From Nitrospirota bacterium (GTDB lineage Bacteria; Nitrospirota; Thermodesulfovibrionia; Thermodesulfovibrionales; Dissulfurispiraceae): DNA of 40,043 nucleotides. Shown in pieces: positions 18,398 to 29,986 of this stretch. The stretch is taken from positions 1-40,043 of the forward strand of contig SCQE01000073.1 in assembly GCA_004321915.1 (NCBI GenBank), written 5' to 3'. A program made the position numbers and the translations under genes. The first letter of the stretch is position 1; each line of letters starts with the position of its first letter. The notes under the pieces were generated by a model that was given only the letters and a program-made list of their open reading frames with translations, was not told the origin of the DNA and made no database searches.

Positions 18398-19393
18398 CTA
18401 CTGCCCCTGCTGCTGCCTGTAAAGAGTCATGTATTCGTTTTCGAGGTCCTCATACTGGGCCTCGACCTTGGCGACCTTATCGGCCTTTTCTTTTAACAGT
18501 TCCTCGAACTCCTTTATCTTGGCCACCAGATCTTCCTTCTCTTTCAATATGCCGGAATAAACAGCTTCGTCAACCTCGCCCTCTACGCCGCCCTGCTGCA
18601 TAAGCCCATTCAGCTGCTCGTCCCACGACCCGAACTGTTCGGCGAGGGCCGAACTGCTCTTTTCGATGGTTGTGACAAAACCGCTCAGCTCGCTGTTGTT
18701 TCCTATGACCTGTTCGGTAGCGGCCTTCAGTTCTTCATTATCGGGCAGCCACGCAGTGAGAGTGGAAAATCTTTCCTGAACATCCTCATAGGTTTTAAGT
18801 ATCGATTTCAGCTTTTTCTGCGCGCTCTCAAAAAGATCTTTGTATCCCATCAGATCGACTATTTTTTGCTTTTGAAACTTTACGACCTTATGCAATGTGG
18901 AAGCCGTTTGCCGATTATCACCGGAGGCTTCTTCCTGCCCCGCAAGAAGATCATCCACGGACACTGCTTCTCCTCCGCCCGGAGCAGCAGCCTGCTCGGC
19001 AAAGGCATCGCCCCAATCGAGGTCTTCCTCTTTTTCAGGCCCTTCTTTTTCGGCCTCAACCTCAAGGGCAGCGGGCTCAGGCCCGGGTTCAGGCGCCGAA
19101 GCCGGAACGGACTCTATGACCGGCCCCTCTTTGATCTGTTCGGGCTCGAGCTCGGGCTCGGGCGCAGGCTTAAGTTCAGGCTCAGGCTCAGGTTCCCGTT
19201 CCGGAACGGAAACAGGTTTTTCCACAATCTCGACCGGCCCTTCCTTGACCGCTACCTCACCTCCGGAAACAGCCTTCTCATACAAAGCCTTGTATCTTGC
19301 CTGTCTGCGGGCGAGCACAACCATCGCAACCAGAATAATGAGGAAGGCCTCGACTACAAGCATGAAATAAAGGGCGTCTATCTCGATGGTCAT
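18398..19393 (-). CDS. Membrane-anchored coiled-coil protein with Glu/Pro-rich linker
   Basis: 331 residues; family not recognised. One N-terminal transmembrane helix (about 8-28) is followed by a short basic turn. A long Glu/Pro-rich repetitive linker (about 62-125, EPEPEPE-type repeats) comes next. Two predicted coiled-coil stretches (about 165-215 and 275-325) end in YRQQQGQ. With the N-terminus out, the bulk would be cytoplasmic on a flexible tether. GGAAGGGG lies about 9 nt before the ATG and the gene starts 15 nt after the stop of the VWA gene, so they form an operon. It converges on the signalling block with no clear terminator between. A scaffold role is possible but unproven. Confidence 0.75.
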   Translation of the reverse strand: MTIEIDALYFMLVVEAFLIILVAMVVLARRQARYKALYEKAVSGGEVAVKEGPVEIVEKPVSVPEREPEPEPELKPAPEPELEPEQIKEGPVIESVPASAPEPGPEPAALEVEAEKEGPEKEEDLDWGDAFAEQAAAPGGGEAVSVDDLLAGQEEASGDNRQTASTLHKVVKFQKQKIVDLMGYKDLFESAQKKLKSILKTYEDVQERFSTLTAWLPDNEELKAATEQVIGNNSELSGFVTTIEKSSSALAEQFGSWDEQLNGLMQQGGVEGEVDEAVYSGILKEKEDLVAKIKEFEELLKEKADKVAKVEAQYEDLENEYMTLYRQQQGQ

Positions 19394-25527: not shown

Positions 25528-25612
25528 AAGTAAGAAGTGAGAACTTAGAACTAAAAACTTTTTACTTCTTACTTCACACTTCTCACTTTTTATTTCTCGC
25601 TTGTTACTTATT
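25528..25612. repeat. Inverted pair of 7-bp repeat tracts (CTTACTT/ACTTCTT family)
   Basis: Five phased heptads at 25528-25562 (AAGTAAG, AAGTGAG, AACTTAG, AACTAAA, AACTTTT) are followed, after one T, by seven heptads at 25564-25612 (ACTTCTT, ACTTCAC, ACTTCTC, ACTTTTT, ATTTCTC, GCTTGTT, ACTTATT). The left block is the same family in opposite orientation, so AAGTAAGAAGT can pair with ACTTCTTACTT to form a hairpin. The right end overlaps the last codons and stop of the activase gene. Confidence 0.75.
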
Positions 25613-28600
25613 CTTTGCCGCTTCCATAAAGGCTTCCAGCTGCAGCGCTGTGGCCGGCGACTCTGTTCCATCATAGGGGATGCTGATGCACGGTATGCCG
25701 AAATCCTTGGCCACCGTCTTCATAAGCGCGCTTACAATAGTGCCGGGCATGCATCCGAAAGGCATAGCTACTATTATTCCCGACGCTCCCTTTTCTATGA
25801 GATCGACCGCCTTGCCTATGCTCAATACGGTCTCCCCTTCGAAGGAATGATGCACATACGGCAGGGCCTTCTTTAAAAGCGTCTTGGTGGAAGGCTCCTC
25901 AAGGGTCTTAAGAAATCCTTTAAAAGGCTTCCCGAGCCTATGCTCTATCCTCTTTTGAAAGACCGTCTTTGCAAAGATATTCATGATAGCAGACCCGTCT
26001 CTTTTTATCAAGGCCTTTCGCATAGACATAGCATTGACATAATAGAGCCACTCTTCGACAGGCGCAAGCCAAACCTCTCCGCCCGAAGACTCGATCTTCC
26101 TGACCAGTCCCTCGTTAGAAAACCTGTGGGACCTTACAAAAATCTCTCCGACAACGCCTATCAGGGGCCTTTTCTCCTCTCTGCGCGGGACAGCCCTGAA
26201 ATCACGTGACATGTCGCTTAATACGCCCTCGATGTCCCCGTTCCTGCCCGCAATACCGCAATGGATCTTTTCGTGGTACCTGACATACAGCTCTTCAGCG
26301 TCGCCTTGCTCCTTCTCATACGGCCGGGTTTCATGCACGCATTTGGTCAAAAACTCATAAGCGATGACCCCGGTCCATGTCCTCTTCGTGAAATCACCGC
26401 CGACAACCCCGAGTTCTTTATAGAACTGTACGTCCTGATTCGGCGAGAAAATGGGCACATTGTCCATGCCTATTTTTTTCAGTATCATGCCGTGCGCAAC
26501 ATTGTACTGCCCGAACCTGCAGGGTCCCGTTCCCGAAGGCATGAAAAACGCCGAACCTGAAGGAACAAAATCAGGAGACAGCGCCTTCTTCAGCATATCG
26601 CCTGCCGTGACCGTATAGGGATAACACTCCTTGCCCGAAACATGCCTTCTGCCTATATCGACTGACGACCTGTCGGATTCCGGCAGGACCTCGGCGCGGG
26701 CGCCGCAGTATTCGAAGGCCGCCTTTATCGCAAACGCATGGTCCGACATCGGCGGGACAAAAACGGTCCGTCTGCTTATATCGGACCTGCTGAATATTTC
26801 GGGAGCAGAGGCCGTATTGATCTTGTCGGGACTCTCGCCCCGGCCGCAGGATATCTGCTGCCCGATACTGTCCAAAAAGGCCTCGCAGCGCGTAATAACA
26901 CCGGCATCTGCGCTGTGTTCGTCGATCTCTATATGCAGGAACGGTTTCCCCCCCATCTCCTCACCGAAGTATTTGAAGATGAACGAGTCGGGGCCGCACG
27001 AAAAGTTCGAAACGCACATCGCATACATGCCGGGGGTCTTCCTGATAAACCGAGCCGCCTTGAGTATCCTCTGCCCCGAACGCCAGTACATGCCGGGCCA
27101 CTGTTCAGAAAGTCGCTCATCCTCTATCGGCAGAAAATCCATCGGAACGGAAAGCACGTTTATCTGCGCCAGTTTTTTAGGAATATCGAGATTTACTCCT
27201 GAATCGAAAGAATTGTATGCCCTCCCGACAATAGCCAAGATCGGAGTGTCCGCCGTGCAATTCGAGAGAATTTCCCTGCCCTTGTCTTTTATACTGCCGA
27301 CAAAACGCTTCTGGACCGAAAGCGCTTTGTCCATTGCAGCCGATACGGCCTTACGGCTTACGCCGTAACGCTTAAGCGCTTTATAAATTTCATCGCCGAC
27401 ACACCCTCCGCCCCGTCCGCTGTCTATAAGCGGAGAGATCATATTCACGCCCTTTATCGCGGCCTTGGAAACATAAGGTATGGACTGTATATGCGGGCAG
27501 GCTAGGCCCCTATCATACTCATCGCCGTTGCCGTTCAAACATATAAAGCTCGGTACAAAAACCGCATCCACCCCCGAATCCATGAGGTGCTTTATATGCC
27601 CATGCGCTACCTTTACCGGAAAACAGGCCTCCGACAGTACATTTTCCAAGCCAAGGTTCACCGTCTGCTTATTGGTCTTGGGCGACACCGTAACTTCGAA
27701 ACCGAGTTCCCACAAAAGGGTTGACCAAAAAGGCAGATAGTCTTGAAAGTAGAATATATAAGGGATCCCGATCTTGACTGCCGACCGTTGACTGCCGACT
27801 GCCGACTCTCTTTTAAGCTGTTCCTTCCAAAGCTCTTCTTCCCTGAACGCAAAAAGGTCAGGCAGCCCGCTTTTTGAAGCCTTTCTTACATCATACTTTT
27901 CGCAGCGGCCTCCGTAAAAAAGATGTCCGTTGTCATCCTCCACTTTTACTCTGTTTATTTCACAGACATTCGGACAGCCCTTGCACTCAAACGAATTTAT
28001 CTCATATTTCCTCTTTGACAATCCAAAACCCTTAAACCTGCTGACTGCCGACTGCCGACTGTTGACTGTTGACTGCTGACTGTTGACTGTTGACTGCTGA
28101 CTGTTGACTGTTGACTGCCGACTGCTGACTGTTGACTGTTGACTGCCGACTGTTGACTGCCGACTGCTGACTGTTGACTGTTGACTGCCGACTGTTGACT
28201 GTTGACTGCCGACTGTTGACTGTTGACTGCCGACTGTTGACTGTTGACTGTTGACTGCCGACCGGCTTTTCATATGCTTCATTGCGATAAGCGCCATGCC
28301 TATCGCACCGGTAACATCGTGGTTCGGCGGAACCGTGACCTTTCTGTCCAGATACCTCTCGAACGCCGCTACAACAGCCTTGTTGAATGCCACCCCGCCC
28401 TGAAAGAATATCCGTTCGCCTATAGGCCGTCCGGACACGACCCTGTTTATATAATTCTGGACAATAGAGTAAGCGAGTCCTGCAAGCAGGTTATCTTTGG
28501 GGGCGCCCTTCTGAAGGTTTGCCATAAGCGAGTTTTCCATAAACACCGTGCAGCGTTCTCCCAGCCTGCAAGGGCTTTCTGCGCTGAACGCCGCGTCGGC

Positions 28601-29986
28601 AAACTCGCCTTTCACAGAGATGCTCAGCTTCTCGGCCTGCTCCTCCAAGAACGAACCGGTCCCGGCAGCACACGCCTTATTCATCTCAAAATCAACTATT
28701 ATGCCGTCCTTGATCGAGATGAACTTCGAGTCCTGCCCCCCTATCTCCAATATAGTGTCCACTTCGGGGTCTATAAATATTGCGGCGGTGGCTTGGGCCG
28801 TAATCTCGTTCTTTACTATATCCGCGCCGACATAATCGGCTATCATGTATCTGCCTGAGCCGGTCGTTCCGACACCGGCGATATTCACGGAACCGCCGAG
28901 CTCCCCGTAAATCTCCGTAAATCCCTGCATCACGGCCTCTATTGGCCTGCCTGCGGTCATCAGGTAACGCTTTGCAAGCAGCCGGCCGCCGGCATCTATG
29001 ACCGCAAGGTTAGTGCTTATCGAACCTATATCTATGCCTAAATACGCCTCTACCGGGGGGCCCTCTTTTTGCCCGCTCACGGCCCCGGAACAAGCGTTAC
29101 CGGCCGTCGTGTGTCGGGCAAAAAAGTCTTCGCCGTCATGTATCAACGCCTTATAGCCTTCTTCGGAAAACCCTGCATCGAGAAAGGCCTCGAGTCTTCC
29201 CAAATCGAATTCATTGAAATTGCGGTCGTCCATGTCCTTCATGACCGCGCCTATAGCGCCCATCAAAGCATAATCGGGCGGAATAAAAAGCTCGTCGAGG
29301 CCGAACACCTCCCTGAAGGCCCTTGCCACGCCTTGGTTTGCAGCCACTCCGCCCTGAAACGCCACAGGCATTTGAAGTTCCCGCCCCTTTGCAATAGCTC
29401 CCCTGAAATTCCTCGCAACCGCAAAACAGAGCCCTGCCACAATATCTTCCACAGGCGTCGCTATCTGCTGAAGGTGTATCATGTCGGACTTCGCAAAAAC
29501 ACTGCACCTGCCCGCGATCTTGGACGGCCTCTTTGACGCAACAGCCAATTTGCTGAATTCTTCTATGGTAAGCCGCAGACGTTCGGCCTGCTGTTCGAGA
29601 AACGAACCGGTGCCTGCAGCGCAGACCGAATTAAGGGAAAAATCCTTTATGTTGCCGTCCTCGATGATTATCAATTTGGAGTCCTCCCCCCCCATCTCGA
29701 TGACTGTCCTGATCAAGGGATAAAGTTTTCTGAGGGAATAGGATTGGGAAACTATTTCATTGACGGGTTTTATTCCAAAGGCCGAAGCTATCGCCTTTCC
29801 CCCGGAACCTGTAATCGAAAGACAGGGGGCCGGATATTTTTGCGTTAAATCCTTAAGCTGCTCAAACGCAACCTTCGCAGGATGGCCGCAATGGCGGACA
29901 TACCGCCCTTCCAGTTTCCTTCCGCTGTTATCCAGAACCGATAACTTAACTGATACCGAGCCGGCGTCGAGACCGATAAAATGCAT
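25604..29986 (-). CDS. Two-domain acyl-CoA dehydratase activase (BadF/BcrA/HgdC-type) fused to DUF2229/HgdB-like region
   Basis: 1460 residues. Two ASKHA ATPase domains occur in tandem. Domain 1 (about 3-255) starts GLDAGSVSVKLSV and has Cys122 (CAAGTGSFL) and Cys161. Domain 2 (about 315-570) starts GIDIGSISTNLAV and has Cys439 and Cys479. In dimeric HgdC such cysteines hold one [4Fe-4S] between subunits, so here the cluster may lie between the two halves. A Cys cluster (C668, C671, C675, C695) precedes a DUF2229/HgdB-like part (about 738 to the end). The family drives ATP-dependent one-electron reduction of 2-hydroxyacyl-CoA dehydratases or benzoyl-CoA reductases. Repeat-encoded inserts sit at about 574-650 and 727-738. 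No dehydratase subunit gene is adjacent. The gene follows manC by 23 nt. Confidence 0.9.
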   Translation of the reverse strand: MHFIGLDAGSVSVKLSVLDNSGRKLEGRYVRHCGHPAKVAFEQLKDLTQKYPAPCLSITGSGGKAIASAFGIKPVNEIVSQSYSLRKLYPLIRTVIEMGGEDSKLIIIEDGNIKDFSLNSVCAAGTGSFLEQQAERLRLTIEEFSKLAVASKRPSKIAGRCSVFAKSDMIHLQQIATPVEDIVAGLCFAVARNFRGAIAKGRELQMPVAFQGGVAANQGVARAFREVFGLDELFIPPDYALMGAIGAVMKDMDDRNFNEFDLGRLEAFLDAGFSEEGYKALIHDGEDFFARHTTAGNACSGAVSGQKEGPPVEAYLGIDIGSISTNLAVIDAGGRLLAKRYLMTAGRPIEAVMQGFTEIYGELGGSVNIAGVGTTGSGRYMIADYVGADIVKNEITAQATAAIFIDPEVDTILEIGGQDSKFISIKDGIIVDFEMNKACAAGTGSFLEEQAEKLSISVKGEFADAAFSAESPCRLGERCTVFMENSLMANLQKGAPKDNLLAGLAYSIVQNYINRVVSGRPIGERIFFQGGVAFNKAVVAAFERYLDRKVTVPPNHDVTGAIGMALIAMKHMKSRSAVNSQQSTVGSQQSTVGSQQSTVGSQQSTVSSRQSTVGSQQSTVSSRQSTVNSQQSTVNSQQSTVNSRQSAVSRFKGFGLSKRKYEINSFECKGCPNVCEINRVKVEDDNGHLFYGGRCEKYDVRKASKSGLPDLFAFREEELWKEQLKRESAVGSQRSAVKIGIPYIFYFQDYLPFWSTLLWELGFEVTVSPKTNKQTVNLGLENVLSEACFPVKVAHGHIKHLMDSGVDAVFVPSFICLNGNGDEYDRGLACPHIQSIPYVSKAAIKGVNMISPLIDSGRGGGCVGDEIYKALKRYGVSRKAVSAAMDKALSVQKRFVGSIKDKGREILSNCTADTPILAIVGRAYNSFDSGVNLDIPKKLAQINVLSVPMDFLPIEDERLSEQWPGMYWRSGQRILKAARFIRKTPGMYAMCVSNFSCGPDSFIFKYFGEEMGGKPFLHIEIDEHSADAGVITRCEAFLDSIGQQISCGRGESPDKINTASAPEIFSRSDISRRTVFVPPMSDHAFAIKAAFEYCGARAEVLPESDRSSVDIGRRHVSGKECYPYTVTAGDMLKKALSPDFVPSGSAFFMPSGTGPCRFGQYNVAHGMILKKIGMDNVPIFSPNQDVQFYKELGVVGGDFTKRTWTGVIAYEFLTKCVHETRPYEKEQGDAEELYVRYHEKIHCGIAGRNGDIEGVLSDMSRDFRAVPRREEKRPLIGVVGEIFVRSHRFSNEGLVRKIESSGGEVWLAPVEEWLYYVNAMSMRKALIKRDGSAIMNIFAKTVFQKRIEHRLGKPFKGFLKTLEEPSTKTLLKKALPYVHHSFEGETVLSIGKAVDLIEKGASGIIVAMPFGCMPGTIVSALMKTVAKDFGIPCISIPYDGTESPATALQLEAFMEAAKNK
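27774..27808. repeat. Five-unit 7-bp repeat tract inside the activase gene
   Basis: Five phased units, TTGACTG, CCGACCG, TTGACTG, CCGACTG and CCGACTC, lie within the activase coding region and encode SAVGSQRSAV-type residues at about 727-738. The unit is the same family as the 32-unit tract 230 bp away, including the CCGACCG variant that ends that tract. It sits just before the DUF2229-like region, at a domain boundary. Confidence 0.8.
28041..28264. repeat. 32-unit phased heptanucleotide repeat (YYGACTG) inside the activase gene
   Basis: 224 bp made only of TTGACTG, CTGACTG and CCGACTG units in perfect phase, with a last CCGACCG. Because 7 is not a multiple of 3, three units code for one heptapeptide. 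The protein therefore shows a 7-residue repeat of the QQSTVGS / RQSTVNS type (about residues 574-650), low in complexity and probably disordered, between the second ATPase domain and the Cys cluster. Gain or loss of one or two units would shift the reading frame. Confidence 0.95.

Follow-up and report, generated by a model that had tools for sequence, protein, structure and literature searches.

A tandem array of heptanucleotides inside a conserved enzyme gene of a Nitrospirota bacterium (assembly GCA_004321915.1) is the longest example, among those found here, of a class of dispersed 7-8-nt repeats in this Nitrospirae lineage. Its locus is not special but one member of a genome-wide class. 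The arrays of this class have probably been expanded by slippage and kept where they are in frame and harmless, a reading that needs no regulatory switch. The window, that is, the whole stretch of 40,043 nucleotides of contig SCQE01000073.1 that was analysed, holds the following features in and around the host gene.

28041 to 28257, minus strand: heptanucleotide array of 31 exact CAGTCRR units (YYGACTG on the plus strand), encoding residues ~577-649
28258 to 28264, minus strand: degenerate 32nd unit, CGGTCGG on the coding strand (CCGACCG on the plus strand)
25604 to 29986, minus strand: gene of the 2-hydroxyacyl-CoA dehydratase activase type with two ATPase domains (two BcrAD_BadFG plus DUF2229), 1460 aa, unbroken (ORF translation, Pfam)
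28283 to 29041, minus strand: second ATPase (activase) domain, residues 316-568, stopping shortly before the tract (Pfam BcrAD_BadFG)
27902 to 27985, minus strand: four invariant Cys (668, 671, 675, 695), C-terminal of the tract (43 aligned sequences)
27134 to 27775, minus strand: DUF2229, residues 738-951 (Pfam)
27776 to 27807, minus strand: short second array of CAGTCGG type in the same activase gene, just N-terminal of DUF2229
25528 to 25588, no strand assigned: inverted period-7 array of AAGTRAG type with two arms in opposite orientation, intergenic, just past the 3' end of the activase gene

The earlier note on this DNA had described the tract as 32 perfectly phased heptads at 28041-28264, composed only of YYGACTG units. 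The phase is indeed perfect, with 0 indels, but only 31 of the 32 units (28041-28257) fit the pattern exactly, the last one (28258-28264) being degenerate. On the coding strand, the exact units comprise 18 CAGTCAA, 8 CAGTCGG and 5 CAGTCAG, and the longest run of identical units is 3, so that the array lacks the purity of a contingency repeat. TRF scores the tract at 293 for period 7 and at 326 for period 42, and no inverted arm is present within 28041-28264. Apparent in-frame steps in the order of the units (lag 3, p 0.04; lag 6, p 0.027) were set aside, as lag 10 yielded p 0.03 (all values uncorrected). As short reads roughly match the array in length or are shorter, the exact unit count may be off in the assembly. 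That the tract as a whole is an artefact of assembling a short-read metagenome is extremely improbable. The genome is a draft in 145 contigs, and a gap of Ns with adapter-like sequence in the relative G029 proves that such errors occur, but the tract lies inside a 40-kb contig with its frame intact, and repeats of this class occur in many genomes, among them that of G006, which consists of a single contig.

The activase gene was matched in 56 of the 60 genomes of the relatives set. The solved activase chains PDB 4eht and 1hux align to residues 316-574; the ATPase fold consequently ends at about residues 568-574, and the tract (about 577-649) begins where the fold ends. The reported position of the tract between the ATPase domain and a Cys cluster was therefore correct, since BcrAD_BadFG ends at residue 568 and the Cys residues (668-695) come after the tract. 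These four residues, which are invariant in alignment A1 (43 sequences, namely, that of the window and those of 42 out of 45 usable relatives), may bind an Fe-S cluster. The description of the C-terminal part as a DUF2229/HgdB-like half holds for DUF2229, but the C-terminal HGD-D match is weak, with 27.7 bits and thus under the Pfam cut-off of 28.4. An AlphaFold model of residues 306-960, based on the 43-sequence alignment (mean pLDDT 78.5, pTM 0.52), has pLDDT values below 50 at protein residues 581-645 (model residues 276-340), with ten-residue means of about 26-32, and this stretch is flanked on both sides by more confident regions. The linker that carries the second short array measures 48 nt here compared with 51 nt in the genus-mate, and has therefore not been lengthened. 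The inverted array at 25528-25588, which belongs to the same repeat class as the tract, sits between convergent genes and may form a terminator hairpin. Another repeat in the window, of period 6/18 at 19138-19195, is located in a 331-aa ORF next to a von Willebrand factor A gene; the match of this ORF to an acidic repetitive protein model is weak and far under the cut-off.

Within this genome, a pattern of three CAGTCRR units gave 58 overlapping matches, half of them (29) in the tract and the remaining 29 spread over nine further contigs, compared with 0 matches for the reversed control. With occurrences on ten contigs and 17 distinct runs in context, the pattern behaves as a dispersed multi-locus class of 7/8-nt repeats. 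It was detected in 19 of the 60 genomes of the relatives set and in 35 of the 295 genomes of the phylum set, this genome being counted in both. A sample of 405,542 bases of this genome, picked partly around such tracts, contained 21 period-7 arrays, whereas a Markov control gave 0, and arrays of other periods were all but absent; at a looser cut, the same sample gave 29 period-7 arrays, 27 of them inside ORFs as predicted by a crude caller. The loci fetched from relatives (591,827 bases) contained 65 period-7 and 27 period-8 arrays, with 0 and 0 in the control.

All 65 CAGTCRR runs of at least 3 units (17 in this genome, 48 in relatives) are in predicted ORFs and in sense orientation, which differs from the preference for non-coding DNA that is described for the Xanthomonas/Nostoc and Beggiatoaceae repeats, though not for those of Geobacter. 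At a coding fraction of 0.919, zero intergenic runs among 65 would occur by chance with a probability of 0.004, assuming that runs are independent and that the caller is correct; the crude caller may, however, stretch ORFs through arrays because these are open in every frame. Most runs (50 of 65) are at least 40 codons away from both ORF ends, whereas, near the predicted start, 11 begin at most 20 codons away and 12 at most 40 codons away, and these may belong to a 5' leader.

According to Pfam, period-7 arrays in this genome are hosted by IspD, CarA, two radical SAM enzymes with CofH/MqnC C-terminal regions, a molybdopterin-binding protein, HypF, a HemD/methylase fusion, an MMPL protein and a 4Fe-4S protein, as well as by the cobalamin/cobalt proteins CbiX-CbiC, CbiM, CbiQ, CbiD and two CobB/CobQ-type amidotransferases; one array-hosting ORF has no Pfam match. 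The hosts are thus mainly biosynthetic enzymes, plus one MMPL and two cobalt-transport proteins, rather than surface or variable proteins. A single hypF gene (L058:9674-12208) contains six period-7 arrays, of the CAGTCRR and AAGTCAG types. The distribution along contig C39 is uneven, with 12 arrays at 150-190 kb (L061-L062) and 0 in the other 200 kb fetched. Clustering is strong in L062 (G000:C39:170001-190000), where ten period-7 arrays lie in and around a cobalamin gene cluster.

Orthologous linkers were compared at eight sites in four genes, namely, two in the activase gene, one in CarA, four in HypF and one in IspD, all picked for an array in this genome. The resulting 279 linkers stem from 50 genomes for the activase, 30 for CarA, 30 for HypF and 29 for IspD. 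For the activase, 50 of the 56 matching genomes were kept, and G021, G023, G035, G040, G053 and G057 were dropped as weak, paralogous or fragmented; the IspD locus L222 was dropped as weak, and L009-L011 are duplicates of L019, L017 and L014. Significant periodicity was found in 50 of the 279 linkers, with a best period of 7 in 38, 8 in 11 and 11 in 1; when this genome is excluded, these numbers are 30, 11 and 1 for 42 periodic linkers. The periodic linkers comprise 31 distinct units (strands merged), one and the same linker being filled with different units in different species, and in several of them a forward array and its reverse complement are placed on either side of a spacer.

At the tract site, an array is present in 12 of the 50 genomes and absent from 38. 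The activase-site linkers of G034 and G042 look repeat-like by eye, yet are under the significance cut. In the genus-mate G001, the linker at this site has 18 nt as opposed to 228 nt here, and the gap of 210 nt corresponds to 30 heptads. Arrays that have not lengthened their linker were also observed: at HypF site 0, the linkers of G006, G012 and G013 (L165, L170, L171) all have 48 nt, and there, as at activase site 2 in the window, it is as if the native sequence had been overwritten.

Linker length is a multiple of 3 in 277 of the 279 linkers and in 49 of the 50 periodic ones. Both exceptions, G029 and G011, are at the activase tract site, where 48 of the 50 genomes have an in-frame linker. 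That of G029 (L083) was ruled out as a second frame break, since it consists of a scaffold gap of Ns with adapter-like sequence, which we take to be of the Nextera type. In G011 (L016), a linker of 106 nt with about nine AAGTCAG units, one heptad off a multiple of 3, leaves the activase halves out of frame; the linker has a TGA after 28 codons, and in the downstream frame ATG, GTG or TTG first occurs 49 codons beyond the linker. This frame break may represent a mutation, a variant within the population or a fault of the assembly. As the only one among the 279 linkers that is not explained by a gap, it is the best place to look for slippage. In the comparison with the genus-mate, in which synonymous sites are near saturation (dS 0.72-1.54), dN/dS amounts to 0.064 before the tract and, beyond it, to 0.069 and 0.079, and both halves of the activase gene are under strong purifying selection.

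These data bear on the proposal that the tract is a contingency locus, in which one-unit slippage would part the ATPase half from the DUF2229 half and turn the enzyme off or on. Its premise is sound: 7 is not a multiple of 3, and the gain or loss of one unit does split the halves, as the other frames run into stops 2 or 14 codons past the tract. Furthermore, the AAGTCAG array of G011 has its halves out of frame, one heptad from 3n, which makes slippage conceivable, and heptanucleotide phase variation is reported for the hmw genes of Haemophilus influenzae (PMC2651432). A phase switch is nevertheless judged quite improbable because of the core metabolic genes that host the sister tracts, the impure array, in which no more than 3 identical units follow one another, and the conservation of frame in 277 of the 279 linkers. 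The array is also absent from the genus-mate, dN/dS is similar on both sides, and the case of G011 may come down to the assembly or to a population variant. In the comparison across species (one assembly per species), retained changes are multiples of 3 nt, like the 210 nt or 30 heptads that separate the tract from the genus-mate. The other option raised in the earlier note, a tolerated insert in a disordered linker, has fared better, as it agrees with the pLDDT of about 26-32, the empty site in the genus-mate, the in-frame linkers of 48 of the 50 genomes and the similar dN/dS on both sides.

In the favoured reading of slippage and tolerance, the birth and growth of arrays would be due to slippage during replication or to template switching, with 7-8 nt as the preferred step, frame-breaking or stop-making versions would be purged by purifying selection, and disordered linkers would tolerate the remaining ones. 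That a 7-nt step reflects polymerase contact is an idea of Mrazek, as cited in PMC4679880. Read in sense, CAGTCRR has no stop in any of the three frames, and the same cyclic Ser/Gln/Val-rich peptide results from each, which makes it an easily tolerated filler. Of the antisense CAGTCRR frames, 41 of 195 are open, which predicts about 11 antisense runs among 65, whereas 0 were observed. Stop avoidance hence explains much of the sense orientation, but the excess over its prediction suggests that more than tolerance and stop avoidance may be at work; proteins may accommodate the hydrophilic sense peptide more readily. Three further observations count against the favoured reading, namely, the arrays at HypF site 0 and activase site 2 that have not lengthened the linker, for which simple expansion gives no account, the clustering on C39 (12 arrays in L061-L062, 0 in 200 kb), and the out-of-frame state of G011 at the tract's own site.

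Copying between loci probably contributes, since unrelated genes have units in common more often when they belong to one genome than when they belong to different ones: with this genome excluded, units were shared across genes in 15 of 38 pairs from the same genome and in 88 of 514 pairs from different genomes (permutation p = 0.002). The arrays as such might be mobile copies of a MITE- or REP-like element with heptad-array arms, comparable to the Rickettsia palindromic elements, which are described in unrelated metabolic genes, many of them in frame (PMC10969869). Apart from the recurrence of units, this explanation draws on the inverted arms, often around a spacer, that are significant in 8 of the 42 periodic linkers of relatives, and on three Y1_Tnp (PF01797) matches over the cut-off in this genome (G000:C8, C139, C144), whose link to the arrays is hypothetical. 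It is rather unlikely in view of the 31 different units, the occurrence of any array length and the lack of an inverted arm in the tract at 28041-28264; nor was a conserved element body or ends noticed.

The arrays could also have a selected function in the mRNA or protein, such as a regulator site, an inter-domain translational pause or a useful hydrophilic linker. The sense-only orientation above stop avoidance and the repeated occupation of the same linkers are consistent with this option, and the Geobacter arrays have been proposed as regulator sites (PMC2700814). The tract RNA folds at -53.7 kcal/mol compared with -16.2 (sd 2.8) for shuffles, a z-score that partly reflects repetition because the shuffles do not preserve the repeat. 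Selected function is considered improbable, since any given site is free of arrays in most genomes (the tract site in 38 of 50), units are not shared, and the hairpin propensity of the observed units is not above that of permuted ones (mean rank 0.78). The same ranking of the 31 units, in which 0 is the most hairpin-prone, led to the rejection of hairpin-stabilised slippage as a general cause. Going beyond slippage and tolerance, one may tentatively entertain that an active and largely sequence-independent process with a step of 7-8 nt operates in this Nitrospirae order and keeps adding tandem repeats to permissive core-enzyme linkers, which would thus be remade again and again from repeated DNA, with the coding sense favoured and some linkers overwritten at constant length.

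Dozens of cases in conserved enzymes, together with empty orthologous sites, make it possible to test how 7-8-nt repeats originate, what sets the step at this length and how often proteins accept them. They also advise caution, in that a non-triplet repeat in a gene need not mean a phase switch. A search of the open-licence literature returned no description of heptamer arrays in Nitrospirae or of in-frame heptanucleotide arrays, and the coding-sense distribution and the repeated occupation of the same linkers appear to be new. One cyanobacterial STRR is reportedly located inside the RNase P RNA gene, going by the title of a 1997 paper by Vioque. Dispersed 7-8-mer arrays as such are already known from Geobacter, cyanobacteria and Beggiatoaceae, and a bacterial excess of heptanucleotide repeats has been noted since 2007, mostly for non-coding DNA, in work cited in PMC4679880 and PMC4692102.

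Among the known systems, the hmw genes of H. influenzae likewise possess a long 7-nt array, one of which is reported within an ORF with a frame shift (PMC2651432). As described there, these repeats belong to adhesin genes, are mostly in promoters and differ in length between strains, unlike the enzyme-linker arrays here; by the standard of phase variation in that report, a unit change in the tract does shift the frame, but array purity and host function do not correspond. The GGGAATC-type repeats of Xanthomonas/Nostoc (PMC4692102) and the cyanobacterial STRR are likewise dispersed 7-nt tandem repeats of variable number. The TAACTGA arrays of Beggiatoaceae, cyanobacteria and Bacteroidetes, which rank directly after the Geobacter elements described below and ahead of the Xanthomonas/Nostoc and Rickettsia repeats, are also dispersed heptamers whose orientation in coding regions is limited by stops; according to PMC4679880, they have one unit, are mostly intergenic just upstream of starts, and related heptamers are rare, whereas the arrays here are mostly intragenic and have many units. 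The Rickettsia palindromic elements are similarly in-frame repeats in unrelated metabolic genes, and in-frame insertion into unrelated genes is a property of the Nitrospirae arrays as well; the former are reported as defined elements of ~150 bp that fall into ten families and have a conserved peptide (PMC10969869), in contrast to the 7-8-nt arrays here, for which a common body was not seen. Finally, Geobacter metallireducens has tandem hepta- and octanucleotide multicopy elements, Gmet_H4 and Gmet_I1-4, which resemble the present arrays in that 7-/8-mers occur within and between genes and that array pairs on opposite strands are found at variable distance (PMC2700814). The Geobacter elements are described with few units and a copy number fixed at three to five, and are read as regulator sites, whereas the Nitrospirae arrays have many units and variable copy number; the latter arrays are mostly in enzyme linkers and in frame. 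Of the comparisons found, these Geobacter multicopy 7-/8-mers are the closest in print.
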